Source of the DNA: Bacillus sp. FJAT-29790
GTDB lineage: Bacteria; Bacillota; Bacilli; Bacillales; Cytobacillaceae
Direction of reading: 5' to 3'
Assembly (NCBI RefSeq): GCF_019039215.1
Contig: NZ_JAHNZZ010000001.1
Coordinates: forward strand, 2,806,165-2,870,164
DNA length: 64,000 nucleotides
The notes beneath the pieces are model-generated. The model did no database searches. It was given only the letters and a program-made list of their open reading frames with translations, and was not told where the DNA came from. How positions within the stretch are numbered: position 1 is the first letter of the stretch; each line of letters begins with the position of its first letter. The translations under genes were made by a program, and so were the position numbers. This document shows positions 17,753-51,006 of this stretch, piece after piece.

Positions 17753-18961
17753 ATGAAAACGATTGTCTTTATTGGGTGCAGTAATTTCGGAACTAGCAAG
17801 GAAGCACTAACGATAGCTAAAGAAATGGGATACTTCGTTGTTCTGTTTACAAATAAGAAAATCCACAAATTTCCGGATGTTGATCATTTTGTTTTTATCA
17901 AGGACTTACAGGATGAAGAGAAAGTTATCGATGAAATAACCAAGTTAAAGGAAACAGGCAAACAAATATGTGCATGCATTAGTTTTATTGATCCCTATGT
18001 TTCTTATGCCGCAAAATTATCTGATCATTTAGGATTAGTAAAGCTATCTGCAGACTCACTTTTTATTATGGAAAATAAAATAAGAGTTAGAGAAAAATTA
18101 ACAAACCTTTCTAGTTCCCCTTTTTATAAAATCTTTAATCATGATCTACCTGTTGATCAGTTTGTGCAGAAATACAACGCATTTTTACCATTGATATTGA
18201 AACCGCCAGCTTCAAATGGTTCTAAGAATGTATTATTAGTTGAAACACCAGAGAAGTTTAAGGCTGGACTAAAATTTTTACAAAAAAGGTCTCCAAGGCA
18301 ACCAGTATTAGTAGAAGAATATTTATGTGGACCACAGTTTCTAATTGAGATAATCGTTCACAAAAATAAATTGACAGTTGTCGGAGTAATCGAACAAGAA
18401 GTTACTAAAAATGAGCGATTTATTGTGATTGGATATAGCTATCCTGCAATGTTAAAGGATGAAGAATATAAAAACCTTCTTGATTCAATCGCAGACATTA
18501 TTGATCAAATGGGATTTTCAAACGGCTCATGCCATTTGGAAATGAGAATGGTTCAAGGAAAATGGAAACTAGTCGAGATCAATCCTCGAATGTCTGGGGG
18601 AGCGATGAACCGAATGATTGAAGAAGGAACAGGAATGAATCTTATAAAAGAAATATTAAGATTGTCTCTAGGTGAGAAACCTTCCTTAATAGAATCTCGA
18701 AAACAGCATGTGTACGCTAGATATTTAACGATAAGTACTCGGGGTAAACTCCTCAAGGTAACAGGTAGAGAACAGGCTTTGAAGCATAAAGACGTAAAAT
18801 ACGTTCATATCAAGCCTCAAGAAGGAAGTATTTTAATCGACCCCCACACCATGGGCAATCGCTATGCATGCATCATCGCAGCCGCGGAATCTCCGGAACA
18901 AGCAAGAACAAGCGCAATAGCGGCTGCAAAGGAAATAAAGTTTTACTTGGAACCACTTTAA
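17753..18961 (+). CDS. CarB-like ATP-grasp ligase, copy 1
   Basis: About 402 residues. N-terminal Rossmann-like domain (MKTIVFIGCSNFGTSKEA), ATP-binding Lys region LILKPPASNGSKN (about 150), Mg-binding LVEINPRMSGGAMN (about 275), and a C-terminal domain of about 90 residues as in L-amino-acid ligases and related peptide-forming ATP-grasps. The reaction is expected to be ATP-dependent amide-bond formation between a carboxylate (acyl phosphate) and an amine. The ATG at 17753 is chosen over a TTG that abuts the AAGGCGGG sequence. It begins a plus-strand run with a CotY-type coat protein and the ATP-grasp/Mur fusion. Clear paralogue of the gene at 22099-23322. Confidence 0.85.
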   Translation: MKTIVFIGCSNFGTSKEALTIAKEMGYFVVLFTNKKIHKFPDVDHFVFIKDLQDEEKVIDEITKLKETGKQICACISFIDPYVSYAAKLSDHLGLVKLSADSLFIMENKIRVREKLTNLSSSPFYKIFNHDLPVDQFVQKYNAFLPLILKPPASNGSKNVLLVETPEKFKAGLKFLQKRSPRQPVLVEEYLCGPQFLIEIIVHKNKLTVVGVIEQEVTKNERFIVIGYSYPAMLKDEEYKNLLDSIADIIDQMGFSNGSCHLEMRMVQGKWKLVEINPRMSGGAMNRMIEEGTGMNLIKEILRLSLGEKPSLIESRKQHVYARYLTISTRGKLLKVTGREQALKHKDVKYVHIKPQEGSILIDPHTMGNRYACIIAAAESPEQARTSAIAAAKEIKFYLEPL

Positions 18962-18987
18962 GCGCTAAATGGGTGGATTGACCAAGT

Positions 18988-19512
18988 ATGAATTCCTTTC
19001 CAATCCGCACAATCCCATTGACTCATAAATACTATATTAAAAAGGGCAGATATGGGGGGCTAACAGTGGAATTGAGTTGTGAGCACGGTTTATGTGATGC
19101 GCTATTTGAATTGAAATCCTTACAAGACTCTTTAATGAATTCCTCGACGAAATACTTCGGTAAATTACTTAGAAAAATAGTAGGCGTAGATACTATTCCA
19201 TTCTTTTTATTAACAAAAAAAGGCTTACTCTCACATGTAGGTACGGATATTAATCATAAAAATGGGAAAGAAGAGTTCTTTACAACTAATTATTTTCGAA
19301 TCGAATCGATTGATCAAGAAAAATGCCGGGCAACGATTTCATTACTTCGTCCTATAAATATACATGGCGATCCTGCACATTCACTTTCTGATGTCATTCG
19401 ATTAAAGAAAACATCAGCATGTATAGAAATTGAATTATTAAATATTTGCGCCATTCAAACATTAGATACTGAATTACTCAAAAGGAAAATCATTATTGAG
19501 CCAAAGTGGTAA
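18988..19512 (+). CDS. CotY/CotZ/ExsY-family spore coat or exosporium protein
   Basis: 174 residues. The family is recognised from the C-terminal two-thirds: VGVDTIPFFLLTKKG, YFRIESID, ATISLLRPINIHGD, VIRLKKTSACIEIELLNICAIQ, which follows the CotY/ExsY pattern nearly throughout. These proteins self-assemble into disulfide-linked sheets of the outer coat, crust or exosporium. This member has fewer cysteines at its N-terminus than typical ones (C31 and C36 here). It sits 26 bp after an ATP-grasp ligase and before the ATP-grasp/Mur fusion, tying the ligase cluster to the spore surface. A terminator follows at 19526. Confidence 0.9.
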   Translation: MNSFPIRTIPLTHKYYIKKGRYGGLTVELSCEHGLCDALFELKSLQDSLMNSSTKYFGKLLRKIVGVDTIPFFLLTKKGLLSHVGTDINHKNGKEEFFTTNYFRIESIDQEKCRATISLLRPINIHGDPAHSLSDVIRLKKTSACIEIELLNICAIQTLDTELLKRKIIIEPKW

Positions 19513-19525
19513 TGCATTAACCTTC

Positions 19526-19552
19526 GCCCTAGGTATTCTTGGGGCATTTTTT
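19526..19552 (+). terminator. Terminator after the coat-protein gene
   Basis: GCCCTAG / CTTGGGGC stem with wobble pairs (19526-19545), then ATTTTTTAT. Located 14 bases past the stop codon. Confidence 0.6.
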
Positions 19553-19753
19553 ATCGTCCTTCTTCTATGATCAATCCTATCCGCTATCCATCCCGATAAT
19601 TTAGCCCATTCTTACAAGTACACTGCTAAAGATCATTTGTTACACCCATCTTTTTAAAATATCAATAAAACTGAACGACTGTCCGTATCAAAAGGATGAT
19701 GAATTGAATGTAATGTATAAGGTTTTATAGATAAGATAAAAGGAGATTATTCT

Positions 19754-21925
19754 ATGACATTAATAGGAATGTTACATCATCGTAAAGACCCCCAAACTGT
19801 CATAAAGTCTTATGCCTATGCGGCAGTTGCTAAAGCAGAGGGAGCGAAATTTGTCTATTTTTCTCCCGGAACAGTGAATTTCGTTAACAATTCCATTAGA
19901 GGCCAAGTATATGAAAACGGCAATTGGGTGGAGAAAATCATGCCTTTCCCAGATGTCATCTACAATGCAGGGAGTCCTGAAAAACTTTCCAAGTCGAAGG
20001 AAATTATTCAAAGCTTAAAAGAAAAGATTCCTTTTACTACTCATTCAATTGGTAATAAATGGAATATAAATGAAAGATTAAAAGAAGCAAAAGAATTTTC
20101 GCACTACCTCATTCCTACCGAAATTGTAAAAGATACGGAGCACTTTTTTAAATTTGTCCATGCATTTGAAAAGGTTGTATTTAAACCGATTGATGGCAGA
20201 AAGGGGAAAGGAATCTTTTTCATTTCGAAAAATAAAAACGGTTTTCAAGTTAAGAAAGACACCGAAAATTTTTACTACTCAAAACAACAACTTAACGATT
20301 TTATCGAGGCAATGCTGGCAACAGGAACCTATATTTCCCAACCTTATATCCAATCAATTACAAGATCTGGGCAAGTATATGATTTCAGACTCCATGTTCA
20401 AAAAAACGGCGAAGGAAAATGGGTGATCACTACGATTTATCCGCGAATCGCTCCAAAAGGATCAATCGTTCCAAATATTAACAATGGTGGTTCCACCAAT
20501 TATTTAGATCCTTTTTTACAACAAGAATTCAAAGAAGAAGCCTTTAATATTAAACGAACACTTGAACATTTTTCCTTGTCTTTAGCCAATCATTTGGATG
20601 AGCTTCAAATGCTGCATTACGGGGAAGTCATTGATGAAATTGGAGTTGATGTTGGATTAGATGAGAATTTGAAAATATGGATATATGAGGTAAACTGGCG
20701 CCCAGGTTGTCCACCGGCCTTTTATTTGGAATTAGATGTAGTGATTAATACCATTAAATATGCCATGTACTTAGCAAATAACCAAAAAGCAATAAAAAGT
20801 AAAATAATAGCTTCACAGAAGGAGAACAAAGATAAAAAAATGAAAATCCCAATTGTTGCGATAACAGGAAGCGCTGGTAAAACGACATCAAAGGCATTCC
20901 TTGCTTCAATCTTAGCAAAAAAATGGAATGTATTTGAATCGAAGGATTATTGGAATACAACAGAACATACCAAAAAACACGCTGAAGAAATCAATTCATC
21001 ACATGAAGCAGTTGTATTAGAATATGGCATGGCTTACCCTGGTGTCATTACAGAACATTGCAGCATTATTAAGCCAAATATTAGTATTGTGACAAATATC
21101 GGCCTTGCCCATGTAGGCAATTTCGATGGCGATATTAAAGGAGTAGCGAAGGCGAAATCTGAATTAATCCATGGGATGGACCAAAAAGGAGTGTTGTTTT
21201 TAAACAAGGATGATCAAAATTCAAAGTATTTAGAGACACAAAAATTTAAAGGAAAGATCATCACCACTGGGATCAAATCAGCCGCTGACTATCGGGCCTA
21301 CGATGTAAAATATGCGGATAATGGAATGACTTTTAAAATGAAGCTCCAAGGGAAGGAAATCCTGCTTTTTATCCCTATTTTAGGAGAGCATCATGTCTAC
21401 AATGCCCTTAATGCAATAGCTGTTGCAGACTACTTAGGGTTTACTCCAACGGAAATTAAATTAGGGCTACTCTTTAAAAAACCACCAAGAAGACTGACGA
21501 TATACAACTGCCGTGACAATATTACCGTGATTGATGATACCGTTCACTCTCACCCTCAAGGAGTAAGAGCCGCCATTGATGTTCTTTCAAATATTGCAAA
21601 GCGCCGTAAAATAGCGATTATTGGGCAAATGAGGGAACTAGGAGATTTAAGAGAAGAAGAATATCGTAAAGTTGGAGATTATGTTTACCAACAAAAGATG
21701 GACATTTTAATCACTTATGGTTATCGAACAGAGGAAATTGGAGAACAAGCAAAAGCAAAGGGTTTTCCTGCTAAAAATATATACCATTACACCGATAAGG
21801 AGCAATTACATGACTTGTTAGTAAAAATAATAAAAAAAGATGACACGATCTTAGTCAAAGGAGCTAGTAAAACGAATATGTTTGATACTGTGAAATTTTT
21901 AGATCAGACATATGGGACTAAATAA
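19754..21925 (+). CDS. Fusion of a YheC/D-type ATP-grasp with a MurF-like ligase
   Basis: 723 residues. Residues 1-345 are a YheC/YheD ATP-grasp module (MTLIGMLHHRKDP start, VVFKPIDGRKGKG nucleotide strand, DFRLHVQKNGEGKW, and IGVDVGLDENLKIWIYEVNW metal site). Residues about 363-723 are the ATPase and C-terminal domains of a MurF-type ligase: P-loop TGSAGKTTSK (368-377), catalytic Glu in LEYGMAYPG, KAKSEL Lys, HHVYNALNAIA, IDDTVHSHP and MRELGD. The MurF N-terminal substrate domain is absent; the ATP-grasp replaces it. ATP-grasp followed by Mur ligase is the order in cyanophycin synthetase, in which the two sites add two amino acids in turn. Start ATG behind AAAAGGAG. The mirrored locus encodes the two halves separately (23493-24500 and 24676-26061). 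Confidence 0.92.
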   Translation: MTLIGMLHHRKDPQTVIKSYAYAAVAKAEGAKFVYFSPGTVNFVNNSIRGQVYENGNWVEKIMPFPDVIYNAGSPEKLSKSKEIIQSLKEKIPFTTHSIGNKWNINERLKEAKEFSHYLIPTEIVKDTEHFFKFVHAFEKVVFKPIDGRKGKGIFFISKNKNGFQVKKDTENFYYSKQQLNDFIEAMLATGTYISQPYIQSITRSGQVYDFRLHVQKNGEGKWVITTIYPRIAPKGSIVPNINNGGSTNYLDPFLQQEFKEEAFNIKRTLEHFSLSLANHLDELQMLHYGEVIDEIGVDVGLDENLKIWIYEVNWRPGCPPAFYLELDVVINTIKYAMYLANNQKAIKSKIIASQKENKDKKMKIPIVAITGSAGKTTSKAFLASILAKKWNVFESKDYWNTTEHTKKHAEEINSSHEAVVLEYGMAYPGVITEHCSIIKPNISIVTNIGLAHVGNFDGDIKGVAKAKSELIHGMDQKGVLFLNKDDQNSKYLETQKFKGKIITTGIKSAADYRAYDVKYADNGMTFKMKLQGKEILLFIPILGEHHVYNALNAIAVADYLGFTPTEIKLGLLFKKPPRRLTIYNCRDNITVIDDTVHSHPQGVRAAIDVLSNIAKRRKIAIIGQMRELGDLREEEYRKVGDYVYQQKMDILITYGYRTEEIGEQAKAKGFPAKNIYHYTDKEQLHDLLVKIIKKDDTILVKGASKTNMFDTVKFLDQTYGTK

Positions 21926-21930
21926 AAAAT

Positions 21931-21979: not shown

Positions 21980-22098
21980 ATGAAGGCATTAGGGATTAAA
22001 AAGTAAAAGACACCGTTTTATATTCGGTGCCCATTGCCCCGTTCAATCGGACAAATCTTTACAGTATCCACTTTATTTTGGTTCATTGGCCCTCATTT

Positions 22099-23322
22099 TT
22101 ATTCAGCTTCTAGGTGGAACTCAATTTCATTTGCAGCATTTTTGGCAAGCTTTTTTGCTTCTTCCATACTTGACCCTGCTGCGATTACATAGGCATATCG
22201 ATGACCCATCGATAATGGTGGAGTTAGCTTGGCTCCTTTTCTAGGCTTAACGTAGGCTTCAACTACTCCTGGGGATTTGCTTGCCCTCCCTTTTCCAGTA
22301 ACTTTTTCCAATATTCCACTTTTTGACAGAACGATATACTGGGTAAATACGTAATTTCGACATGTTGGTATTAGGGTAGGTTTTTCCCCTAAACATAACT
22401 TAAGAGTTCCTTCTACTAAATTATAACCAAATGCAGCTTGAAGCATTTTATTCATTGCTCCACCAGAGATTCTTGGATTGATCTCAATGAGCTTCCAATC
22501 TTTTTTATTATTACGTCGTATTTCTAGGTGAAGCGGACCATTCTTAATGCCAAATTGTGAGACGACAGAATGCAGAATCCTTTCAATTCCAGTTATTATT
22601 TCCCTTGGAACATTCACCATCACACCATAACCTGTAATAATAAATCGTTTCCCTCGAGTAATTTCTTGTTCAAGAATGCCAGCAATTAATATTTTATTGT
22701 TATACACCAGTGCCTCAACTAAATATTGGTCGCCATCAAAATATTCTTCAATAATAATGGCTTCATCTGGATTCTTTTCCCGCAATCTTAATGTATGTTT
22801 ATCTAACTGTTCTTTATCTTCCGCAAACAACGCATCTTTAGAACCTGTTGATTTCGGCGATTTTACCATGACTGGAAAGTTAAGTTTTTTGCTCACTTTT
22901 TCAAATGAAATAAGTTCATCTGGCTTAATAATAGCAAATTTAGGGGTATAGGGTTGATTCTTTAGAAAAACCCTGGTCTCCTCTTTATTTTCCATTTTAG
23001 AAATCGCATTAGATGAGATATAACTTTGACAAAATTCTTCACAAAGAATGGAAGCAATATGAACATACGAATCAATAAAGCTAACAATTGTCTTTATATC
23101 CATGCCTCTTGACCGTAGCTTTTTTATTTCAGCTTTCATTTCAGAAAGTTTCGTCGTATCAACTAATATCATTTCATGAACATCAATATATTCTTTCCTT
23201 TGGTGCAATTGCTTTTCGTTATTTGTGAAAACAACCGTAAAATAACCGAGTTGTTCTGCTGCTTTAACTGCTTCCCTACTCGATCCAGATTTATTTGTGC
23301 CAATAAAGATAATCGTTTTCAA
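22099..23322 (-). CDS. CarB-like ATP-grasp ligase, copy 2
   Basis: 407 residues from a TTG start eight bases after GGGAG. This start gives the N-terminus MKTIIFIGTNKSGSSREA, which aligns with the MKTIVFIG start of copy 1; a GTG three codons upstream abuts the RBS. It has the same architecture: pre-ATP-grasp domain, VMVKSPKSTGSKD nucleotide site, LIEINPRISGGAMN metal site, and the MGHRYAYVIAAG C-terminal domain. It lies downstream of the YheC-type gene at 23493 on the minus strand and forms, with the genes to 26061, a mirror image of the 17753-21925 block. Amide-ligase activity is inferred from family. Confidence 0.85.
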   Translation of the reverse strand: MKTIIFIGTNKSGSSREAVKAAEQLGYFTVVFTNNEKQLHQRKEYIDVHEMILVDTTKLSEMKAEIKKLRSRGMDIKTIVSFIDSYVHIASILCEEFCQSYISSNAISKMENKEETRVFLKNQPYTPKFAIIKPDELISFEKVSKKLNFPVMVKSPKSTGSKDALFAEDKEQLDKHTLRLREKNPDEAIIIEEYFDGDQYLVEALVYNNKILIAGILEQEITRGKRFIITGYGVMVNVPREIITGIERILHSVVSQFGIKNGPLHLEIRRNNKKDWKLIEINPRISGGAMNKMLQAAFGYNLVEGTLKLCLGEKPTLIPTCRNYVFTQYIVLSKSGILEKVTGKGRASKSPGVVEAYVKPRKGAKLTPPLSMGHRYAYVIAAGSSMEEAKKLAKNAANEIEFHLEAE

Positions 23323-23492
23323 ACAGTTCACTCCCTACATAATTTCGAAATAATGACATGTTATATGTTTATGAGATATTCCTTTTTTTGTATGGTTTTG
23401 TATCACGAAAGCAGAGAATTAAAGAGTTCAGACATTCTTGAGAAAAGGGAAAAGCTTTAAAAGCGATTTTCCCTGTTACCTTGCCACGATCG

Positions 23493-24500
23493 CTATTTGC
23501 AGAGATTGATACAATATGGAATAAGTCGTTTTGCAACCTCAAATTCTCTATGTTTAGAACCTGGTCGCCAATTCACTTCATAAATCCATAGCTTATGAGA
23601 ATGATCAATTCCCACATCTATACCGAGCTCATCAAATGGATGATCATATAATTTGTCAAAATGGGTTGAAAACGTTAAGGCGAACTGTTCTATACACTCT
23701 TTTATTTCAAGATAATCGTCACCAAATTCTTCAATTAAAAAAGGCACTAATTCTCCTCGGTATCCTCCACTACTAATGTTACTGATCATTTTTGAATTTC
23801 CGCTTATCCGTGGATAAATCAAGTTAATTTCCCACTCCCCGTTTCGATTTTTTTGAACATGAATCCGAAAGTCATACGTTAATCCGGCTCTCGTTTTACA
23901 TTCAATAAACGGCTGCAGCAAATATTTTTTCTCCCGAATAAGACGATTAATAAACAAAGTTAATAGCTTTTCTTTGTAGATTTTTTTTACTGATCCATCA
24001 GTCAATTGGTAAGAATCATCAGAGGTTTCCTCAATGAACATAACATTTTTTCCATGATGGCCAGAAAGGGGTTTTATGACGAGTTTTTGATATTCTTGAA
24101 AAAAAGGCAAGACATCTTTGCCACTCTTTATTTGAGTGGAAGGAATTAAATAGTCAGCAAATTTCTCCCCACTAAGGACCTTATTATATACCGTCATTTT
24201 ATTTCCGACAGGATGGCTTGTAAAAATAGCGAAATCTTTTAATTGGTTTTTAATAGCTGATTGCTTTTTTGTCCTTGGAGAACTAATGTTAATGATCACT
24301 TCCGGAAATTCTATTTCTTTCTGAATCCAATTCCCACTTTCATAGACCCATCCATTGATTTTCCTTTGCTCAAAATCTATACATTTATAGGAAAAATAAG
24401 AAAAATCGGCTCCTTCCATTTTTGCAACAGACGCAAAAGCAAACGCCTTTTTTACTTTTTCTGGGTTATATCGATAGTGGAGCATTCCAATTGAAACCAT
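23493..24500 (-). CDS. YheC/YheD-type ATP-grasp protein
   Basis: 335 residues, closely related to the N-terminal half of the 19754-21925 fusion along its whole length (GMLHYRYNPEKVKKAFAFAS against GMLHHRKDPQTVIKSYAYAA). It has LVIKPLSGHHGKN, YDFRIHVQKNRNGEW, and the terminal metal site LGIDVGIDHSHKLWIYEVNW. The YheC/YheD family is associated with spore coats in Bacillus; the ATP-grasp fold implies a carboxylate-amine ligation. It lies between the MurF-like gene at 24676-26061 and the CarB-like ligase at 22099-23322, all on the minus strand. Confidence 0.9.
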   Translation of the reverse strand: MVSIGMLHYRYNPEKVKKAFAFASVAKMEGADFSYFSYKCIDFEQRKINGWVYESGNWIQKEIEFPEVIINISSPRTKKQSAIKNQLKDFAIFTSHPVGNKMTVYNKVLSGEKFADYLIPSTQIKSGKDVLPFFQEYQKLVIKPLSGHHGKNVMFIEETSDDSYQLTDGSVKKIYKEKLLTLFINRLIREKKYLLQPFIECKTRAGLTYDFRIHVQKNRNGEWEINLIYPRISGNSKMISNISSGGYRGELVPFLIEEFGDDYLEIKECIEQFALTFSTHFDKLYDHPFDELGIDVGIDHSHKLWIYEVNWRPGSKHREFEVAKRLIPYCINLCK

Positions 24501-24675: not shown

Positions 24676-26061
24676 TTACAATCGATACTTTTCAACAACC
24701 TTGCGATAGGAGGGATCCATTTTTCCAAGGGACATTTTAAAAAGAATAATCATGTCCTCGTTATTAATCTTATCTAAAATTGCTTCTAATTCGTTCGCAT
24801 CATTTGCGAAAAATACATTAGAAGGATTCATGCCAGATGCAATCGCACTTTCTCCTGTTAGAGCAGCCGATGAACCAACTGCGATTAAATAGTCGACACC
24901 TCCATAATCCATCATCGTTTTTCCCATTTTTTCGTGTTGTTCTTTCAACTGATTTCCAAGCCTCTGCATTTTCCCTAAAACGAAGACTTCTTTCTTTCCA
25001 TTTGAAATGCTTTTTAATACTTCAATGGCTGAGTTAACCGAGCTAGGGTTGCAGCTCCAAGTATCATCGATCACTGTGCTACCATTAAGGCCTTTGTACG
25101 TTTTTACATGCCTTTCCATGACTTTAAAGTCCCTTAATCTTTTGATTCCTTCTTCAATAGGGATACCAACTATCTTAGCCGATGCGATTGCCGAGAGACT
25201 GTTGTATACATTGTGTTCACCATATCCAGGAATAAAAACCTCATAAATTTCATTAGAGAAATGTAAACGATATTGCATGCCATGGTTTTCATATTTCACA
25301 TTGGATGCACGGAAATCTGCATCTTTGTTAAAGCCGAATGAAAGCATCTTCCCTTTGAACGATTCCAATGATAATTTCTTGATATTTTCGTCATCTTCAT
25401 TTAAGATGAGAGTCCCATTGCTTGATAAAACCTCTAACATTTCACCTTTTGCTTGCACATATTTCTCTAAAGTCTTGCATCCTTCCAAATGAGCTTCACC
25501 GATGTTTGTGATGACACCGATTGTTGGTTTAAAGTATTTCCCGCTTATTCGAATGTTTCCGGGGTAAGCAACACCCATTTCAAAGACTGCCATTTCTGTA
25601 TTTTCATCTATTCCCATTAAATATTGCAGATTTAAATGTAAACCATTTTGGCTAAGGAAGGTGCCATGGACCCGATAATCCTTTTTCAAAATATGTTTAA
25701 TCATTTCTTTTGTAGTTGTCTTTCCACAAGTTCCTGTAACTCCGATAACAGGGATCTGAAAAAGCCCCCGATAATAATCGATAAAATCCAAATAGGCTTT
25801 CTTGCTATTCTCCACTATAATGAGGCAAGAAGAGGGATCTATATATCTACCAATTCGATTATCTTCCGTTACAATCACATAATGGCTTTTTCCCATGAAT
25901 ATGCTTGGTTCGATCGGTTTTTTACTCATATGAAAATACAATGAATGGTCCTTTAAGTTTTTTAACTGTCTACAAACATTGTGAATTGCTAATTGATTGT
26001 CACCACGAGTCAAATTACCGTTAATAGCTGTTAAAACCTCAGATATTGTAAGTAACTTCAT
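24676..26061 (-). CDS. MurF-like ligase, copy A
   Basis: 461 residues from the ATG at 26061, five bases after the stop of the upstream ATP-grasp gene and preceded by AGGGG; an earlier ATG would overlap that gene by 70 bases. Domain 1 (1-100) resembles the MurF substrate domain but is short and lacks its usual DSR/G-D motifs. The ATPase domain has TGTCGKTTTKE (about 109-119), FEMGVAYPGNI, TNIGEAHLEG, and the carbamyl-Lys region QAKGEML. The C-domain has IDDTWSCNPSS and GKMQRLGN. The final MurF block usually reading VKGS is FKMSLGKMD here. It probably ligates an amino acid or short peptide to a non-MurNAc acceptor. Confidence 0.88.
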   Translation of the reverse strand: MKLLTISEVLTAINGNLTRGDNQLAIHNVCRQLKNLKDHSLYFHMSKKPIEPSIFMGKSHYVIVTEDNRIGRYIDPSSCLIIVENSKKAYLDFIDYYRGLFQIPVIGVTGTCGKTTTKEMIKHILKKDYRVHGTFLSQNGLHLNLQYLMGIDENTEMAVFEMGVAYPGNIRISGKYFKPTIGVITNIGEAHLEGCKTLEKYVQAKGEMLEVLSSNGTLILNEDDENIKKLSLESFKGKMLSFGFNKDADFRASNVKYENHGMQYRLHFSNEIYEVFIPGYGEHNVYNSLSAIASAKIVGIPIEEGIKRLRDFKVMERHVKTYKGLNGSTVIDDTWSCNPSSVNSAIEVLKSISNGKKEVFVLGKMQRLGNQLKEQHEKMGKTMMDYGGVDYLIAVGSSAALTGESAIASGMNPSNVFFANDANELEAILDKINNEDMIILFKMSLGKMDPSYRKVVEKYRL

Positions 26062-26066
26062 GATCT

Positions 26067-28214: not shown

Positions 28215-28319
28215 TTTTGTTAACTCACCATCCGATCCCAAGAGTTAAATTGAAGTGGGTATAACTGTCTATAAATGCGGGGATAAAACTTATTCCCTTA
28301 GTAAATTTCCTGCATTTCC

Positions 28320-31412: not shown

Positions 31413-31534
31413 GTTGATCGATCCCTTCACAAACTTTGGATGAAGTAACTCCTTTCATAGCATATGATTTCCCTTATTAAACCAATATCGATGGTGCCTC
31501 CTAATATATTGGCCCTCATATTTCACTATCAGTT

Positions 31535-35739: not shown

Positions 35740-35769
35740 CATCTTGAATAAGATCGTATCCACATCTAA

Positions 35770-35804
35770 AAAAGCTCTAACTTTTCATAAAGTTAGAGCT
35801 TTTT
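35770..35804 (+). terminator. Terminator after the unknown beta protein
   Basis: AAAAGCTCTAACTTT / AAAGTTAGAGCTTTT stem, loop TCAT, T tract following. Works on both strands, and also closes the minus-strand operon ending at 35860. Confidence 0.85.
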
Positions 35805-42879: not shown

Positions 42880-42986
42880 TAACATCACTTCCTTTTATTT
42901 ATTTTCCCGCTTTTTCTCCTACTAGAATAATTAATATCCTTGATCGAAAGAGACATAAATCACAAGTATTTTTCTATTTTCATAGT

Positions 42987-43226: not shown

Positions 43227-43228
43227 AA

Positions 43229-43996: not shown

Positions 43997-44387
43997 TTTT
44001 ACTTCCTCCACCGGATCCTTATCGGATTAAATTTGTTTTCCAACTAAGATAGGTGTTTACTACATGGTCACATGCTAGTGGTGATTCCTTATCTCTTGTT
44101 ACAGAATATGCAAATAAACTTTTAGTTGGACTAGTTATCTTGCGGAAATGGCCTCCCAATCGCTTTTACCTTTGCTTAATAAAGTGCTTTGTTAATCAAT
44201 GTTGTTGACCCTTTAATAGAAAGTGCAATAAGTATCTCGTCAGCATCAATTAAATGATTTATATTAACTTCCATCCTTTTATCTCTAGGTTTGTGCTTGT
44301 TTTCTGTTCATGCCGTTTCCATTGCATCAATCCGTTCATAAACTAAAATTGTGAAGGTGAAAACATATTTGAAAGGCGAGTGGCATC
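43997..44387. other. Divergent intergenic region between TauE/SafE and cysC
   Basis: About 390 bases with no convincing gene. A 33-codon minus-strand frame (about 44179-44280) has only a weak AAAGG before its ATG. The region must hold divergent promoters; I see no S-box, CymR-like site or other recognised sulfur-control element. Confidence 0.5.
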
Positions 44388-45017
44388 TTGAATAATAATG
44401 GTGATTCCAAGAATCATGTTTTCTGGCATCAACCAGCGATAGAGAAAGAAGATCGCGAAAAACTGCATGGCCATAAAAGTATAATGATTTGGTTTACGGG
44501 GCTTTCAGGATCAGGGAAGTCAACAATAGCCAATGCTCTTCAGCATCAATTATTTAGAAAAAACATTAGCGTTTATTTATTAGATGGCGATAATCTCCGT
44601 CATGGCATTAATAAAAACCTCTCATTCACTGCTGAGGATAGACAAGAAAACATTAGGAGAACAGCTGAAATAGGCAAGCTGTTTGTAGATGCTGGAGTCG
44701 TTGTACTTGCTGCACTTATTTCTCCATTTGAAAAAGAGCGATTGAATGCAAGGGCACTTTTTAAACCAGACGAGTTTATTGAAGTTTACATCAAATGTCC
44801 ACTACTGGAATGTGAAAACAGAGATCCGAAAGGACTTTATAAAAAGGCTAGAAAAGGAGAAATAAAAAATTTTACTGGAATCGACCAGCCTTATGAAGCA
44901 CCAAAAAATCCAGAAATCATCATTGATACAAATAAATTATCGATTGATGATTCTGTAGAAATCCTCTTATCATACCTTTTTGATAAAGTTTGTCTTATGC
45001 TAAATCCAAAGGAGTGA
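44388..45017 (+). CDS. cysC: Adenylylsulfate (APS) kinase
   Basis: 209 residues. P-loop WFTGLSGSGKSTIAN (about 34-48), LLDGDNLRHGIN, FTAEDRQENIRR, and the family C-terminal block GLYKKARKGEIKNFTGIDQPYEAP (marking residues about 150-173). It phosphorylates APS to PAPS with ATP in the cytosol. TTG start with AAAGGCGAG upstream. Its stop is six bases from the sat start, so the two are one operon. No cysH (PAPS reductase) or sulfite reductase gene is linked, so PAPS is more likely used by the nearby sulfotransferase than for cysteine synthesis. Confidence 0.95.
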   Translation: MNNNGDSKNHVFWHQPAIEKEDREKLHGHKSIMIWFTGLSGSGKSTIANALQHQLFRKNISVYLLDGDNLRHGINKNLSFTAEDRQENIRRTAEIGKLFVDAGVVVLAALISPFEKERLNARALFKPDEFIEVYIKCPLLECENRDPKGLYKKARKGEIKNFTGIDQPYEAPKNPEIIIDTNKLSIDDSVEILLSYLFDKVCLMLNPKE

Positions 45018-45023
45018 TTGATT

Positions 45024-46163
45024 TTGCCATTAAGTATTCCTCATGGCGGCAAGTTAGTTAATCAAATAGACTTAAATTACAATTTTTCTACCCTTTCAAG
45101 TGAAATTGAAATAGATGCAATGGCACTATCTGATTTAGAGTTAATTGCAAATGGAGCTTATAGTCCACTTATTGGCTTTCTTGGAAAGGAAGACTATAAA
45201 TCTGTTATAGAGAAAATTAGGTTGGCAAATGGAGTTGTTTGGAGTATCCCGATTACCCTTCCCGTTTCTGAAGAAGCTGCACAGAAGCTAAGGATAGGGG
45301 AAAAGGTGAAGCTAACGTTTGAAAATGAAACTTACGGTGTATTAGAACTACAAGAACTTTTTACTCCCAATAAAAAAGAGGAAGCAGAAAAAGTGTATCT
45401 AACAACCGACCCCGATCATCCTGGTGTCAAAAAACTTTTTGAACGTTCAAATGTATATGCAGCCGGACCTATTATATTAACAAAAATCCCACCGAAAAAT
45501 CCTGATTTTAGCCACTACTACAAAACGCCATTGGAAATAAGAAAAGAATTTGAAAAAAAGCATTGGAACACAGTTGTAGGATTCCAAACGAGAAATCCTG
45601 TTCACAGAGCTCATGAGTATATCCAAAAAACAGCACTAGAAATAGTTGATGGCTTATTTCTAAATCCCTTAGTTGGTGAAACAAAATCGGATGATATTCC
45701 AGCAACTATTCGAATGAATAGTTACAAAGTGTTATTAAAAAACTATTACCCATATGACCGTGTATATTTAGGTGTATTTCTCGCCGCCATGAGATACGCT
45801 GGGCCAAAAGAAGCTATATTCCATGCCCTTGTTCGAAAGAATTATGGCTGTACACATTTTATCGTTGGACGAGACCATGCTGGAGTAGGTGATTATTATG
45901 GTACCTATGATGCACAAAAAATCTTTACACAATTTAGTTTTGAGGATATTGGCATCACGATTCTTTCCTTTGAACATAGCTTTTATTGCACAAAATGCAA
46001 AAATATGGCTTCAAGTAAAACGTGCCCTCATGACAAAAAAGACCATTTACACCTATCTGGAACAAAGGTCCGAGAAATGCTGCGTACCGGGATTACTCCA
46101 CCTCCGGAGTTTAGTCGCCCCGAAGTGGCTGAAATCTTAATCAAAGGGTTAAAAAATTCATAA
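45024..46163 (+). CDS. sat: Sulfate adenylyltransferase (ATP sulfurylase)
   Basis: About 379 residues, typical of the monofunctional bacterial/archaeal Sat. The ATP-binding motifs [11 protein letters not shown] (about 190) and [12 protein letters not shown] (about 285) are complete, as is a zinc-ligand pattern FYCTKCKNM...TCPHD. It makes APS from sulfate and ATP. The TTG at 45024 is chosen because AAAGGAG is nine bases upstream; an in-frame TTG at 45018 is too close. Directly follows cysC; a 17-bp perfect hairpin ends the operon. Confidence 0.95.
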
Positions 46164-46201
46164 TGAAAAAAGCTGTTTAATAGAAAACAGCTTTTTTCAT
46201 T
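46162..46201. terminator. Bidirectional terminator between sat and the PHP gene
   Basis: A perfect 17-bp stem (AATGAAAAAAGCTGTTT / AAACAGCTTTTTTCATT) with a 5-base loop, flanked by A and T tracts. It serves both convergent genes. Confidence 0.92.
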
Positions 46202-46994
46202 ATAGTTCGAATCCAAACTCCCCGATCTTATGCTCTTCATTATGAAAGTCTGAGCCGCCTGTCATAAGTTTTTTATACTTTTTCGCTAGACTTTTATACC
46301 GGATGATGTCCTCTTCGCGATGTTTACGATGCCAAACTTCGATTCCATCAAAAGGCAGCTGCATTAACTCTTCCACGATTATATCATCTTGAATAAGCAA
46401 AGGATGGGCTAAAACCGCCGTTCCCCCGGCGTTGTGAATCAAGTTGATTCCCTCATCGGGAGAGTGAACCATCTTATCCACTGCACAAGGTTTTCCATCA
46501 CCTAAATAAAGATCAAATACTTCTTGGGTGTTTTTTGCATATCCTTTAGCAACCACTGCTTTTGCTATATGGGGGCGAGCAATTATGTCTCCTTTACTAT
46601 ATTTTTGGACATCATCAGAAGTAATCGTCATCCCCAGTTCACAAAACTTGTTTACAATCAATTGAGATCGATGATAACGATGTTCCTTCATTTTCTGTAA
46701 AATATCTAATAACTCTTTTGATTCTTGAATATGATAGCCTAAAATATCAATGCTTTTTCCTTTATACTTCGTGCTTAATTCGATACCTTGTATTACCGTT
46801 AAATTCAATTTTCTTCCCGTTTGTAATGCCTCTTGAAATCCATCTATTGTATCGTGATCTGTTATGGCAATCGTAACTAATCCTTTTTGTGCTGCCATTT
46901 TTACAACTTCACTAGGGGAAAAACTGCCATCTGAAGCGGTTGTATGCAAATGCAGATCAAAACAGCCATTCTCAAGGGCTTTCTTAAGCTCCAA
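46200..46994 (-). CDS. PHP-domain phosphoesterase (YciV/TrpH, nucleotide 3',5'-bisphosphate type)
   Basis: 264 residues. PHP metal sites are intact: FDLHLHTTASDGSFSP at the N-terminus, TDHDTIDG (about 43), GIELST (about 66), AHPLL (about 165) and GSDFH near the end. Characterised relatives remove the 3'-phosphate of nucleoside 3',5'-bisphosphates such as pAp, or act as 5'-3' exonucleases. pAp is the by-product of PAPS-dependent sulfotransfer and inhibits those enzymes. Its place next to sat-cysC suggests pAp recycling (inference). TTG start behind AAGGAGAG. Confidence 0.85.
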   Translation of the reverse strand: MELKKALENGCFDLHLHTTASDGSFSPSEVVKMAAQKGLVTIAITDHDTIDGFQEALQTGRKLNLTVIQGIELSTKYKGKSIDILGYHIQESKELLDILQKMKEHRYHRSQLIVNKFCELGMTITSDDVQKYSKGDIIARPHIAKAVVAKGYAKNTQEVFDLYLGDGKPCAVDKMVHSPDEGINLIHNAGGTAVLAHPLLIQDDIIVEELMQLPFDGIEVWHRKHREEDIIRYKSLAKKYKKLMTGGSDFHNEEHKIGEFGFEL

Positions 46995-47173
46995 TCAATT
47001 CTCTCCTTTTATGAGTTTCTGGAAAACTGGAATATTACTATTTCTAATCCCTTATTTTCCTCCTTACAGGTTATTTATCTTTTAATTATATGTGAACTAC
47101 TTAGGTAAATCATACAAGCAAAATTAATAATCAAACGTACAATGTACAAAGTGAAAGGAGTGTAAACATCACA

Positions 47174-48553
47174 ATGAAGCCCCTCTCGGTTAGTCATATA
47201 AAAACAATCCTTGATGGCGAATTGATTCAAGGGTCTGATGATGTGATTGTTCATTACGGTGCATATCGTCTTAAACAAATAAAAAATCGCAATACCATTT
47301 TCTTTTCAAATACGATGATTCTTGATTGGGAACGCCTAAAAGAATTTCTCCCCTTAGTGCTTGTAACAAATCAGAGATCGAGCCAAGCCAAAAACATTAA
47401 AAATTTAACCGTCATAAAAGTAAAAGATGCGGAAAAAGCATATTGGAAATTTGTGGAATATTATCGCAATCTATTTCAAATTCCTGTTGTAGCCATTACA
47501 GGGACTTCCGGAAAGACGACGACAAAAGAAATGGTTAAGCATATTCTCTCAGCAGATAAAAAAGTTGCAGCTACAATTGGCACGAATAATTCACGAACTG
47601 CTCATTTGCAATACCTCCTGAGTATTGATGATGAAACTGAGGCCGCAGTTTTTGAAACAGCCGTTGGTACCCCAGGGGACGTGTTAAAGGCAAGTGAATA
47701 TTTCAAACCTACGATCGGGATTATTACGAATATAGGGGCGCATCACTTGAATTATTGCAAAACGCTTGAAGCTTATATTGATGCCAAAGGTGAAATGATA
47801 GCAGCGCTTAATCATTCAGGCCTACTTATTATCAATGCGGATGATCCAAATAGTAGAAAAATAGATTTAAGTAATTTTCATGGAAAGATCATAAAAATTG
47901 GAAAAGATTCAGCTTGTCATTTTAGAGCTTCCGATATTAAATACCGTAAAAAAGGTATGGATTTTATCGTCCGTCATGAACAAAATAATTACCCAATGTT
48001 CGTACCGGGATTTGGAGAACATCAAGTTTATAATGCGCTTTGCGCTGTTGCAGCTGCCCACGCAATAGGCGTTAGTCTTCCTAAGGCTGCCGATCGATTA
48101 AAGAAATTCAAAAAGTTCAATAAGCAAATTCAAGTATTTGAAGGGATAAATGGTTCTACGCTTATAGATGATACATGGAGCATTACAACAACTTCATTGG
48201 AGGCAGCTTTAAAAGTGTTAAATGAAGTCGGAAAAGCTAAGAAAAAAGTAGCTATATTAGGTACCATAACTGATTTAGGATCTTGGGGATATGTGATTCA
48301 TGAACAAGCAGGGGAATTAATACATCAGAACGGTGTAGATGTTCTCGTTACGATCGGTTTCCATGCGCGCATAATGGCTGAACACGCTGTGAAAAGCGGC
48401 TTGAATGCACAGGTCTATACATTTAACAATAGTCCCCTAGCATATGATCTTTTAACAAAAATCGTAGATGAAAATACAATTATCCTTATTAAAGGAGATA
48501 TGTACAGCAAGCCAATTATCGAATTAGCGTTTAAATTACGAAAGAAAAAGTAG
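47174..48553 (+). CDS. MurF-like ligase, copy B
   Basis: 459 residues with the same three-domain plan as the other MurF-like proteins here. P-loop TGTSGKTTTKE (about 110-120), FETAVGTPGDV, TNIGAHHLNYC, Lys in DAKGEMI, HQVYNAL, and a C-domain with IDDTWSITTTS, where MurF and the sister copies have an N-P pair. That loop contacts substrate in MurF, so the loss suggests a different amino acid or acceptor. GAAAGGAG upstream of ATG. Followed by an ATP-grasp and another MurF-like gene in the same direction. Confidence 0.87.
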   Translation: MKPLSVSHIKTILDGELIQGSDDVIVHYGAYRLKQIKNRNTIFFSNTMILDWERLKEFLPLVLVTNQRSSQAKNIKNLTVIKVKDAEKAYWKFVEYYRNLFQIPVVAITGTSGKTTTKEMVKHILSADKKVAATIGTNNSRTAHLQYLLSIDDETEAAVFETAVGTPGDVLKASEYFKPTIGIITNIGAHHLNYCKTLEAYIDAKGEMIAALNHSGLLIINADDPNSRKIDLSNFHGKIIKIGKDSACHFRASDIKYRKKGMDFIVRHEQNNYPMFVPGFGEHQVYNALCAVAAAHAIGVSLPKAADRLKKFKKFNKQIQVFEGINGSTLIDDTWSITTTSLEAALKVLNEVGKAKKKVAILGTITDLGSWGYVIHEQAGELIHQNGVDVLVTIGFHARIMAEHAVKSGLNAQVYTFNNSPLAYDLLTKIVDENTIILIKGDMYSKPIIELAFKLRKKK

Positions 48554-48596
48554 CTCCCCCTTTTCATGATGATTACTCAAAGGGGGAGCATTTTTT
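48553..48596 (+). terminator. Terminator after MurF-like copy B
   Basis: GCTCCCCCTTT pairs with AAAGGGGGAGC, with T6 following. It overlaps the last base of the CDS end. Confidence 0.88.
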
Positions 48597-48655
48597 ATAC
48601 AAGTTTGTATTTTCGGCCATTCGATTTTGTAATAACTTATTCTTCTACCACCCAC

Positions 48656-48684: not shown

Positions 48685-48724
48685 ATAAAATTAATAAAAT
48701 TATATTACTTCTGAGGTGTATATC

Positions 48725-49519
48725 TTGAGTGATTCATTAGGAAAATGGAAGCAAAGTTTACTGTTACGACAAAGTCCCTTAACAGCAAATAGTATTCCAG
48801 AAACGGACATTTACAGTCTTAAGAACCTGATAGATTTAATGAATCGGCATGACTATGTTTATGTTAAACACGATACCTCTGGACAAGGAAGAGCCATGTT
48901 TAAGATTTTCAAACGAAATGATGGGCACTATTGTTTTAACGGTTTTACCTTCCAAGGTAAGCTAATAAATAAATGTGTGACAGCAATTGAGGATTTCCAC
49001 CAACTTCTACACCCATTTGAGAAATTTGGGCGATTAACGAACTATATTATTCAAGAAGGTATCCCGAGTTTGACTCTGAATAGACTCCCGTTTAGCATTC
49101 GATCTCATGTTCAGAATCTAGAGGGACAATGGGTAATTGGTGGAATGTTCGGAAAAATAGGTAGCGATGAAGCAATCGATCATGGAATTGCCAATACCCA
49201 TCAAGGCGCTCAAGTCGTACCGATGGATAAATTGTTATCCGTACATTTGAAGATGGATGATGCTAAGAAAGATGAAGTAATTGATTCTTTACAGAAAGTT
49301 TCTATTTCGGCTGCCGAAGTGATCGCATCGCAATTTCCTTGTCGGGAATATGGGATTGATTTGGGGCTACATCGCAATGGAGAACCTGTCATATTTGAAG
49401 TGAATACGACTCCAGGAATCGGTGGATTTGCCCGTATCGAAAATAAGGCCCTATGGGAACGAATTGTGGAAATTCGGAAATTGCAGAAGGAGCTGAATTT
49501 AAAAGATAGCTTTTTATAA
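48725..49519 (+). CDS. Short YheC/D-type ATP-grasp
   Basis: 264 residues from a TTG six bases after GAGGTG; the product then starts MSDSLGKWKQS, matching the MSVSVGKWTK start of the 34176-34925 protein and of the Ugd-fused module. The ATP site is VYVKHDTSGQGRAMF and the metal site YGIDLGLHRNGEPVIFEVNTTPG. It lacks a pre-ATP-grasp domain. It lies between two MurF-like genes on the same strand, so again an ATP-grasp paired with Mur ligases. Confidence 0.85.
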   Translation: MSDSLGKWKQSLLLRQSPLTANSIPETDIYSLKNLIDLMNRHDYVYVKHDTSGQGRAMFKIFKRNDGHYCFNGFTFQGKLINKCVTAIEDFHQLLHPFEKFGRLTNYIIQEGIPSLTLNRLPFSIRSHVQNLEGQWVIGGMFGKIGSDEAIDHGIANTHQGAQVVPMDKLLSVHLKMDDAKKDEVIDSLQKVSISAAEVIASQFPCREYGIDLGLHRNGEPVIFEVNTTPGIGGFARIENKALWERIVEIRKLQKELNLKDSFL

Positions 49520-49617
49520 GCGGAAGCTCGCCATTTTTAAAACGTTTTCCTTTATGCAATACCCAGACAATAACCATTTATTTTTCATATTATATTTTGA
49601 GGAAAGGAGGAGCTTGA

Positions 49618-51006
49618 TTGCAGCCATTACTAGTAAAAGACATTCGGAATTTACTTCAAGGTGAATTAATTTGCGGTTCAGAACTCTGGAAGGTAAGAGA
49701 TGCCATTTATTATAAGCGGCAAGATCTTACGAAGCGGTATACACTTATATTTGTCAGCAGAAGTGATTCTATTAACTGGGGGGAAATTAATAACAAGGGG
49801 CCTTCTCTTGTCATTTCTGACCTGCCTGCTTCGGAACTGAAAAAAGCCCTGTCAGATACAACTGTCATAAAAGTGAATAACCTTGTGCAGGCATACTGGA
49901 AATTTATCGAGTATTATCGCGGTCTTTTTCATATCCCTGTGGTGACAATAACGGGGACATGCGGGAAAACAACCACGAAAGATATGATCAAGCATATTTT
50001 AAGTAAGGATCGAAATGTCCAGGCATCTATTAGCAGCCAGAATGAGCCCCGAAGGTCATTTCCTTATTTAATGGGGATTGATGAAAAAACAGATGCCGCC
50101 GTGTTCGAGCATGGACTAGGAAACTCAGGTAATATTAAACACCAATGTATGATCTATCAGCCGACAATCGGAATCATTACAAATATCGGTGTTCATCATT
50201 TAGATGGGTGTCATAATCTTGAAGGCTATATAAAAGCGAAATCAGAAATAGTAGATGGAATAAAAAAAGGCGGCACGCTCATTTTAAATGCGGATGATGA
50301 AAATACGAAGAAAGTGCCTTTGCAATCATTTAAAGGCAAAATAATCTATTTCGGAAGCAGTACGCGATCAGATTTCAGGGCTTCTACTATCAAGTTTTCA
50401 AAAAACGGAATGGATTTTCTGCTTCATTTTAAAAATAAAACATATAAAGCTTTTATCCAAGGATATGGTGAACACCAAGTATATAATGCACTGGCTGCCC
50501 TTGCTGCCGTTAATGAGATTGGAATGAAAATGGAGGAGGCAATCTCGCGTCTTGCATCTTATAAAAATATGACTAGACATTTAGAGGTTTCTAGTGGGAT
50601 TGGTGGAAGCACGATTATTGATGATACATGGACAAATAATCCTACCTCTGTGGAAGCTGCATTAAAGGTACTGGACTCCATTGGCAAAGGAAAAAATATC
50701 ATTCTTGTCTTGGGTGATATTAACCGATTGGGGAATTTTGAAAAGAAGTATCATCGTGAAATCGGTAGCATGGTTGCTAAAAGGAACATCCATACTCTTA
50801 TTACGATCGGAAACAAGGCAGAGGAAATTGCAAAACAAGCTGCGAGAGATGGAACGAAGGCTAATGTCCATAGCTTTAAAGATGTTAATGGGATCATGGA
50901 TATTTTAGACCCAATTCTTAACCGCCATGCCATTCTACTCATCAAAGGACCAATGTCAAGCCGCTCAATGATCGAATTTGCCAATCGTTTAAAAATGGAT
51001 ACTTGA
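49618..51006 (+). CDS. MurF-like ligase, copy C
   Basis: 462 residues from a TTG seven bases after AAAGGAGG. Domain 1 (1-105) is unlike that of MurF. The ATPase domain has TGTCGKTTTKD (about 112-122), FEHGLGNSGNI, TNIGVHHLDGC and KAKSEI. The C-domain has IDDTWTNNPTSVEAAL, GDINRLGN and LIKGPMSSRSM. All core catalytic positions look intact. Closest in the window to copies A and B, which points to repeated duplication within the cluster. Last gene of the ligase region on this side. Confidence 0.88.
   Translation: MQPLLVKDIRNLLQGELICGSELWKVRDAIYYKRQDLTKRYTLIFVSRSDSINWGEINNKGPSLVISDLPASELKKALSDTTVIKVNNLVQAYWKFIEYYRGLFHIPVVTITGTCGKTTTKDMIKHILSKDRNVQASISSQNEPRRSFPYLMGIDEKTDAAVFEHGLGNSGNIKHQCMIYQPTIGIITNIGVHHLDGCHNLEGYIKAKSEIVDGIKKGGTLILNADDENTKKVPLQSFKGKIIYFGSSTRSDFRASTIKFSKNGMDFLLHFKNKTYKAFIQGYGEHQVYNALAALAAVNEIGMKMEEAISRLASYKNMTRHLEVSSGIGGSTIIDDTWTNNPTSVEAALKVLDSIGKGKNIILVLGDINRLGNFEKKYHREIGSMVAKRNIHTLITIGNKAEEIAKQAARDGTKANVHSFKDVNGIMDILDPILNRHAILLIKGPMSSRSMIEFANRLKMDT

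Follow-up and report, generated by a model that had tools for sequence, protein, structure and literature searches.

A conserved island of YheC/D-type, MurF-like, and L-amino-acid-ligase-type modules with a predicted link to the spore surface in Bacillus sp. FJAT-29790

We analyzed a stretch of 64,000 nucleotides from Bacillus sp. FJAT-29790 (contig NZ_JAHNZZ010000001.1, positions 2,806,165 to 2,870,164), hereafter called the window, in which a block of approximately 27 genes carries 15 predicted amide-ligase modules. Pfam scans confirmed all of them: nine YheC/YheD-type ATP-grasp modules (YheC/D, PF14398), four MurF-like modules, and two ATP-grasp modules of the L-amino-acid ligase (LAL) type. 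As judged from sequence comparisons, this island is real, is conserved, and is linked to sporulation by several computational lines. We lean, with modest confidence, toward a mother-cell pathway for a non-ribosomal peptide or polyamide of the outer spore layers; we infer its reactions and the polymer itself, as well as where that polymer lies and how it is attached. Possibly, the C-terminal tail of a CotZ-type coat protein primes the polymer, which would be linked to a sulfated glycan of uronic sugars. A previous sequence-only reading of this DNA had proposed a similar interpretation, which is partly supported by the results below.

Nine matches to the PF14398 model lie between 20.0 and 49.5 kb of the window, all of them above the curated cut-off and at the places where the nine YheC/D modules had been proposed before. 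One module forms the N-terminal half of a YheC/D::MurF-like fusion protein (19754-21925, plus strand; 212.9 bits), and another belongs to a separate gene at 48716-49519 (plus strand; 131.4 bits). The other seven lie on the minus strand, at 23493-24500 (192.8 bits; at 41% identity the closest in the window to the N-terminal half of the fusion), 26067-27161 (228.2 bits), within 29340-31430 (164.3 bits), and at 34176-34925 (167.9 bits), 35860-37176 (222.5 bits), 37173-38513 (208.4 bits), and 38479-40800 (200.5 bits, residues 492-751). The N-terminal part of the last protein (773 aa) is a tenth, degenerate YheC/D-like region, which scored 32 bits with a profile (A3) built without that protein. Genome-wide, 14 copies of PF14398 were found, comprising the nine of the island, four in the ordinary yheC/yheD cluster approximately 47 kb past the window end, and one elsewhere. 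Among 36 genomes of the genus, counting this one, 27 hold exactly four copies and nine hold more; the YheC/D enrichment is therefore real and accessory.

The invariant active-site residues K102, K144, Q196, R212, D299, E312, and N314 (fusion numbering) are kept in all nine YheC/D modules, and the nearly invariant aspartate at 210 is a serine in the 48716 module. The eight other modules are 20-41% identical to that of the fusion. This diversity supports the earlier suggestion of several different building blocks, as do the 2-aminoethylphosphonate genes that lie beside the same kind of ligase in other genomes. When a YheC/D profile was compared with the Protein Data Bank (PDB), the best solved relative was tubulin-tyrosine ligase (TTL; 3tig, E 1e-6), followed by TTLL6/7. 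The TTL family PF03133 also scored above its cut-off in three modules (34176, 35860, and 38479), over short stretches only. TTL and TTLL6/7 add amino acids to protein tails.

The four MurF-like modules, also named in the sequence-only reading, were recovered with the Mur_ligase_M/C models in the C-terminal half of the fusion (PF08245, 115 bits; PF02875, 67.5 bits) and in separate genes at 24676-26139 (minus strand; PF08245, 150.1 bits; PF02875, 39.2 bits), 47174-48553 (plus strand; PF08245, 145.5 bits), and 49618-51006 (plus strand; PF08245, 133.9 bits; PF02875, 55.3 bits). All four keep the invariant active-site residues T111, G112, G115, K116, T117, E163, H193, K207, E209, and D335 (alignment numbering). 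Their scores with the MurF model TIGR01143 were 254.4, 265.7, 253.5, and 255.3 bits, respectively, all below the cut-off of 288.6. Furthermore, PF01225, the UDP-binding N-terminal domain of MurF, was not found in any of the four at E 0.001, whereas the genome's own MurF scored 45.9 bits. A tree of Mur domains sets the separate island Murs, along with those of phosphonate operons, apart from the genome's MurF with a support of 1.0, and it clusters the fusion Murs together (0.999, with an orphan Mur of genome G018); this tree holds few sequences and some weak supports, and four Murs unmatched by the P-loop pattern, in which the motif may still exist, were excluded. The island Murs are classed as MurF-like, but not as MurF.

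Two further modules had been described as CarB-like. Their assignment to the ATP-grasps holds, but that to CarB does not, and they are better called a predicted dipeptide-ligase type: the LAL_C2 (PF18603) and ATP-grasp_4 models exceeded their cut-offs in both proteins, LAL1 (17741-18961, plus strand, placed at 17753 in the sequence-only reading; 63.9 bits) and LAL2 (22099-23331, minus strand; 74.6 bits), the LAL_C2 cut-off being 29.4. The nearest PDB relative of LAL2 is the L-amino acid ligase BL00235 (3vot, E 1.3e-12), an enzyme that forms dipeptides.

The conserved core of the island runs LAL1, CotZ, YheC/D::Mur fusion, LAL2, Mur, YheC/D, and Mur, with a gene for an NlpC/P60 protein next. 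In Neobacillus soli (L089), DNA identity of 75-83% extends over window positions 17725-19554, 19657-21911, and 22097-23404, and then resumes at 47153-48614, 49553-50997, and 51196-52773, all inside approximately 13 kb there. The same DNA-level jump was seen in L049 (same genus, short stretch) and in L238 (another family). Because collinearity jumps across it in these relatives, the interval from approximately 23.4 to 47.1 kb (approximately 23.7 kb) is considered as cargo, gained here or lost there. The island had been treated as one unit, but it has two layers, and the cargo is missing from all three of the relatives whose DNA was compared.

A search of 299 genomes of the order found the full-length fusion, at 60% identity or more, in seven genomes besides its own; one further fusion (G069) carries an internal stop, and adjacent split halves occur in three more genomes. 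Within the genus, the fusion was matched at E 1e-80 in 8 of 36 genomes, with both halves together in five of these, one of the five (G021) having them split; G018 has the two halves far apart. Fusion loci were found in Neobacillus, Psychrobacillus, Lysinibacillus, Sporosarcina, Lederbergia, Domibacillus, Heyndrickxia, and others, and in one Clostridia metagenome bin. Synteny was counted in the best 80 of 136 confirmed fusion loci from a scan of titled contigs, 66 of which had the full 10-kb flank on both sides; the fusion is present in all 80 by construction. Its neighbors were an LAL gene in 78 of the 80 loci, a separate Mur gene in 76, an NlpC gene in 71, CotZ in 62, a free YheC/D gene in 40, and a gene for a 147-aa protein in 32. 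Therefore, the genes are not scattered among relatives, an outcome that would have spoken against the sequence-only reading. Genome G039 has 18 YheC/D modules and a larger island, in which Mur, CotZ, and LAL genes are interspersed.

Some variants of these loci were observed as well. An M14 zinc carboxypeptidase gene adjoins split YheC/D and Mur genes in L073 (11419-13473) and L075 (11550-13583; Pfam match seen in L075). In G021 (L081, 8217-12706), an 877-aa YheC/D-like gene lies beside two Mur fragments and an open reading frame (ORF) similar to 2-aminoethylphosphonate (AEP) transaminase, and the locus looks degraded. The conserved 147-aa protein, which has N-terminal cysteines (MGV[IL]CPCG...) and no family match above cut-off, occurs in L090 (16271-16705) and 31 other loci, and most of the upstreams viewed share the conserved stretch GGACAAACACNGTGCC and AATATANTA. 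It is absent from the window, and the 133-aa protein encoded there is not detectably related to it (E 0.64).

The link to sporulation was examined in the regions upstream of the genes in the 80 loci, with upstreams shorter than 60 bases, ORFs shorter than 110 aa, and near-duplicate upstreams left out. The sigma-K -10 motif CATANNNTA, after the consensus given in Table 4 of PMC3416734, was found in 127 of 421 island-type upstreams (63 on the antisense strand), compared with 48 of 507 upstreams of other genes (53 antisense; p 1.2e-15). With a -35 element in addition, the counts were 24 of 421 (antisense 6) and 11 of 507 (antisense 11). TATAAT showed the opposite trend (46/421 island-type vs 111/507 others). 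By class, CATANNNTA was present upstream of 53 of 141 Mur or fusion genes, 37 of 88 LAL genes (antisense 28), 20 of 63 YheC/D genes, and 15 of 38 CotZ genes. The p values do not represent independent events, the genes being related. In the window itself, a sigma-K or sigma-E -10 element lies upstream of 12 of the 27 island genes, LAL1 with CATANNNTA among them, vs 1 of 22 others, although some of these upstreams span 0-20 bases; the single non-island match lies in the stretch common to that gene and the first island gene, which is transcribed divergently. The predicted promoters thus give no indication of expression confined to vegetative cells, a further outcome that would have counted against a spore function.

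The fusion gene has, in addition, a two-block promoter-like element, TGTCC...TGAATGTAAT (19679-19715, plus strand), which recurred in 30 of the 63 fusion upstreams left after near-duplicates were removed from 75, and in one at most in any of 50 shuffled sets. Its TGTCC boxes resemble SpoIIID sites, although no claim is made on this point. One two-block promoter shared by all operons of the window was considered and rejected; only the fusion site scored high, and the four weak matches elsewhere equaled the four of a reversed-sequence control.

Coat and exosporium proteins provide a second line. The coat protein of the window, as the sequence-only reading had it, is of the CotZ/CotY type (18988-19512, plus strand; PF10612, 35.6 bits, cut-off 24). 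Besides, a BclB-type exosporium protein (TIGR03721, 144.5 bits, cut-off 93.15) is encoded in the G021 island, and a morphogenetic spore-coat protein (NF052457, 174.5 bits, cut-off 71) in a Heyndrickxia island. The slot after the fusion in L095 (12789-15517) and L163 (12713-15379) holds a morphogenetic spore-coat gene and a desampylase-like (JAMM) gene, both checked in L095, and two small genes. In Bacillus subtilis, yheC and yheD are sporulation genes and YheD forms a shell around the spore, according to PMC517825 and PMC7911427.

The island CotZ ends in a characteristic tail, IIEPKW, encoded at 19492-19509 (plus strand). This tail or a close variant was matched by a strict pattern in 50 of the 62 island CotZ proteins, whereas the E.K tail occurs in none of 19 other CotZ copies of the same genomes (at least 103 bits to PF10612; six within approximately 20 kb of an island). 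Ten of 12 rows for island CotZ proteins were read by script: nine close with E[PQ]KW and one with IIEPK. The eleventh, of G106, which the script did not pick up, has no tail, and the short row G039:C26:135076 was left out. It must be noted that the patterns for the CotZ tail, the two-block element, and the WalR-type box described below were all written post hoc, from viewed sequences. The tail is present too in LAL-YheC/D-CotZ triads whose YheC/D is unfused to Mur (G017, G018, and G039), and in two of these three no Mur was found within the 20 kb read. The IIEPKW tail of the island CotZ and the profile match of YheC/D to TTL are new. A CotZ tail tied to TTL-like ligases would fit the look of a protein primer, and a role in packing or sorting would fit equally well. 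We advance only tentatively, as a doubtful extension, a model in which the polymer grows on the island CotZ as a protein primer: the IIEPKW-COOH end of CotZ would be extended by the TTL-like YheC/D enzymes, and the branched peptide would be continued by the LAL, MurF-like, and (in relatives) COOH-NH2 ligases, with amines such as AEP or with amidated, sulfated uronic sugars.

The cargo comprises six free YheC/D genes, one Mur gene, and a set of genes for sugars and sulfation. Cargo genes are rare in the order: relatives of the 27381 glycosyltransferase at E 1e-15 were found in 6 of the 299 genomes (own included) and relatives of the sulfotransferase in 24. The 29340-31430 gene (minus strand) encodes UDP-glucose dehydrogenase (PF03721/PF00984/PF03720) fused to YheC/D, with 578 bits to the TuaD model, below its cut-off of 700; the two functions are encoded by neighboring genes in G017 and G018. 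An RfbA-type sugar-1-phosphate nucleotidyltransferase lies at 32262-33131 (minus strand; PF00483, 241.4 bits). This enzyme, the dehydrogenase, and the sulfation genes had all been recognized before, and each was recovered by the family scans. Five glycosyltransferases had also been named. Two scored above their Pfam cut-offs, at 31535-32233 (minus strand; Nucleotid_trans PF03407, 28.5 bits, cut-off 22) and 33361-34098 (plus strand; family 2, PF00535, 43.1 bits, cut-off 23.3). The remaining three did not: 27381-28241 (minus strand) had a weak match (Rhamno_transf, E 0.052), 28320-29195 (minus strand) had none in Pfam at 0.001, and 41013-41858 (minus strand), a possible glycosyltransferase by the earlier naming, had none up to E 1. 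The first two of these are a tandem pair of probable glycosyltransferases with 69% identity (repeat families D1 and D2), and homologues of 27381 adjoin UDP-glucose dehydrogenase and family 2 glycosyltransferase genes in L083, L169, and L173.

The 3'-phosphoadenosine 5'-phosphosulfate (PAPS) module is complete for ATP sulfurylase (45018-46163, plus strand; TIGR00339, 440.4 bits, cut-off 322.95), adenosine 5'-phosphosulfate (APS) kinase (44388-45017, plus strand; TIGR00455, 262.1 bits, cut-off 138.7), and sulfotransferase (42115-42888, minus strand; PF03567, 48.0 bits, cut-off 22). It is accompanied by a TauE/SafE-type transporter (43229-44011, minus strand; PF01925, 168.6 bits) and a PHP-domain phosphoesterase (46200-46994, minus strand), possibly a phosphatase of PAP (3',5'-bisphosphate), with 187.3 bits to NF041577, below its cut-off of 400. 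Relatives of the latter (55% and 59%) lie beside sulfotransferases in L177 and L178 (G206 and G292). Loci L175-L180 of other Bacillales are glycan clusters with at least one sulfotransferase, some also with APS kinase, ATP sulfurylase, and PHP phosphatase; no YheC/D match was seen in the stretches read. The cargo further encodes the small protein of 133 aa (35338-35739, plus strand), which has no family match and is a candidate structural spore protein by position only. A terminator-like hairpin occurs in inverted copies (91% complementary) at 34123-34157 and 35768-35802, flanking the region of the 34176 YheC/D gene and the 133-aa gene.

In other Bacillales, the same kind of ligase accompanies phosphonate genes. 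G020 (same genus) has phosphoenolpyruvate (PEP) mutase, phosphonopyruvate decarboxylase, and AEP transaminase genes (above NCBIfam cut-offs), followed in an operon-like array by YheC/D (60%) and Mur (46%) genes. PEP mutase exceeded its cut-off in 17 of 397 genomes, and a MurD1 homologue lies within 5 kb in 12 of these (seven genera); in a 13th, YheC/D abuts the mutase gene, and neither was seen nearby in the other four. The first gene was a COOH-NH2 ligase::YheC/D fusion in both phosphonate operons scanned, and sigma-K elements preceded three of the seven operons viewed. Operon-like arrays that combine Mur genes, mostly with YheC/D, and the genes for PEP mutase, phosphonopyruvate decarboxylase, and AEP transaminase were seen in L220, L223, L224, L225, L228, L230, L237, and L050. 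L224 has a transaminase::nucleotidyltransferase fusion, the COOH-NH2 ligase::YheC/D gene in first place, and a spermidine-synthase homologue nearby. Since PEP mutase had no match in the genome of the window, the phosphonate operons inform on the ligase class and not on the product of the window.

The NlpC/P60 neighbor (51194-52600, minus strand) has three PF00877 domains, and in the PDB it matched wall hydrolases of the NlpC/P60 family, CwlO and LytE among them. A motif scan found a WalR-type box, TGTAAT-N5-TGTAAA, upstream of it (52738-52754, minus strand), and a box of this type precedes 40 of 63 NlpC/P60 genes vs 0 of 773 others. Because of this box, the gene is probably a vegetative wall hydrolase. 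CATANNNTA was found upstream of 2 of 61 NlpC genes; the promoters thus speak against the candidate role of a PgdS-like hydrolase of the polymer.

Several known systems resemble parts of the island. Like the B. subtilis YheC/YheD proteins, which are linked to sporulation (PMC517825 and PMC7911427), the nine island modules belong to PF14398; here, however, the genome has 14 copies, and they occur together with genes for MurF-like ligases, LALs, and sulfation and with a fusion to UDP-glucose dehydrogenase. The cyanophycin synthetase CphA1 has an ATP-grasp and then a Mur ligase in one chain, the same order as in the fusion, but the ATP-grasp of the fusion is of the YheC/D type, and TIGR02068 gave 67.1 bits (cut-off 850), in the Mur part only, compared with 254.4 for MurF. 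The fusion is cyanophycin-synthetase-like in architecture only. The Ddl and MurF enzymes of murein synthesis likewise place a dipeptide-ligase-type ATP-grasp beside a MurF-like ligase; the island differs in having LAL for Ddl and no recognized UDP-binding domain in its Murs. The archaeal pseudomurein clusters A and B also gather Mur ligases and an ATP-grasp for a cell-surface peptide (PMC11915815), but their ATP-grasp protein is another one (a small CPS) and they are archaeal, whereas the island belongs to spore-formers and includes a coat protein. PgsB and PgdS, a Mur-fold ligase and a hydrolase whose architecture is three NlpC/P60 domains, parallel a Mur gene with an NlpC/P60 neighbor. The resemblance ends there: TIGR04012 (PgsB) gave 24 bits for the 24676 Mur (cut-off 222.7), the other three island Murs were not among the matches listed, and the NlpC gene of the island is under the WalR-type box. 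Iyer and co-workers reportedly predicted, in 2009, non-ribosomal ATP-grasp and COOH-NH2 ligase pathways and a bacterial origin of TTL; that study is not known to include the YheC/D::Mur fusion, the CotZ tail, the sigma-K statistics, or the sulfation link. Among the matches listed in the open literature, no paper dealt with YheC/D together with Mur ligases or with sulfated Bacillus spores, a weak negative at the level of listings, and five terms relating to spores, YheC, and Mur ligases were all absent from PMC8939145.

The proposed pathway can be outlined as follows. The two LAL-type ATP-grasps would form dipeptides from free amino acids, the part that Ddl plays in murein synthesis. The YheC/D ATP-grasps would activate a carboxyl terminus and couple it to amino acids or amines, the paralogues differing in substrate. 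The MurF-like ligases would then add further units on an acceptor other than UDP-MurNAc-peptide, because the UDP-binding N-domain of MurF is not recognizable in them. MurF itself adds a dipeptide, and by analogy with Ddl and MurF we infer that the LAL-made dipeptides are attached by the Mur-type enzymes. In the fusion, the YheC/D domain would occupy the place of the MurF N-domain, as another ATP-grasp family does in cyanophycin synthetase. Finally, the cargo would supply UDP-glucuronate and an RfbA-type nucleotide sugar, together with glycosyltransferases and sulfation from PAPS; the carboxyl group of UDP-glucuronate is a likely target of amidation, since its dehydrogenase is fused to a YheC/D ligase.

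A number of observations weigh against this spore-polymer pathway. As many as 294 of the 421 island-type upstreams have no CATANNNTA, and the motif is missing from all 30 upstreams of the 147-aa protein gene. For the longer form GCATANNNTA, the enrichment is only weak (21/421, antisense 14, vs 11/507, antisense 10), and a control pattern, ACATNNNAT, is likewise higher in island-type genes (60/421 vs 39/507, p 0.0018); base composition therefore adds something to the enrichment, although the excess of CATANNNTA is much stronger. CotZ was unrecognized in 18 of the 80 fusion loci. The similarity of YheC/D to TTL is weak and confined mainly to the C-terminal part of the ATP-grasp domain. Except for the TauE-type transporter, no gene for polymer export or assembly was recognized in the Pfam scans of the island. 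Moreover, the syntenic block probably includes a vegetative part, the NlpC/P60 gene, so synteny alone is no proof of a shared pathway.

Three other explanations were weighed. A vegetative capsule or a teichuronopeptide-like wall polymer, that is, a polymer of glucuronate and amino acids on growing cells, would account for the TuaD-like score of the dehydrogenase, the RfbA-type, glycosyltransferase, and sulfation genes, and the WalR-type box of the NlpC/P60 gene. The enrichment of the sigma-K-type element and depletion of TATAAT upstream of island-type genes, CotZ in 62 of 80 core loci, and the coat and exosporium proteins of two other islands make it unlikely. It is also rather improbable that LAL and MurF-like enzymes produce variant UDP-MurNAc-peptides in the mother cell, in which case the unusual peptides would belong to the cortex and not to the coat. 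MurF is indeed the closest curated family (253.5-265.7 bits), LAL beside MurF-like ligases parallels Ddl beside MurF, and an NlpC/P60 wall hydrolase is the usual neighbor. However, all four island Murs fall below the MurF cut-off and have no recognizable PF01225, which the genome's own MurF possesses; the spore-related companions seen are CotZ, exosporium, and coat proteins; and the NlpC genes mostly carry the WalR-type box and rarely the sigma-K element. In other bacteria, dipeptide antibiotics are products of LAL-type ATP-grasps, and a diffusible, bacilysin- or dapdiamide-like non-ribosomal peptide loaded on or released from spores would suit this role, the patchy spread within the genus, the weak DdaF matches (47.5 and 26 bits vs 840), the ABC-type cluster near 20 of 80 fusions, and two small membrane proteins, SMR-like as judged by eye, paired near 15 of 80, but it is quite unlikely, since these transporter genes are missing from most loci, the coat protein is present in 62 of 80, and nine YheC/D modules would be many for a small peptide.

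A spore-surface pathway of the kind proposed here would tie the YheC/D family to enzymes of known reaction type and could give YheC/YheD a chemical role. The island offers the CotZ tail as a candidate acceptor and, as candidate substrates, dipeptides, uronates, and, in relatives, AEP, and the role of YheC/D on spores thereby becomes directly testable. If the pathway is true, it would represent a new class of covalent, sulfate-bearing spore-surface polymer beside the coat and exosporium of environmental spore-formers; if CotZ is in addition the primer, bacterial spores would bear a coat-protein-primed, non-ribosomally grown, peptidoglycan-like shell.

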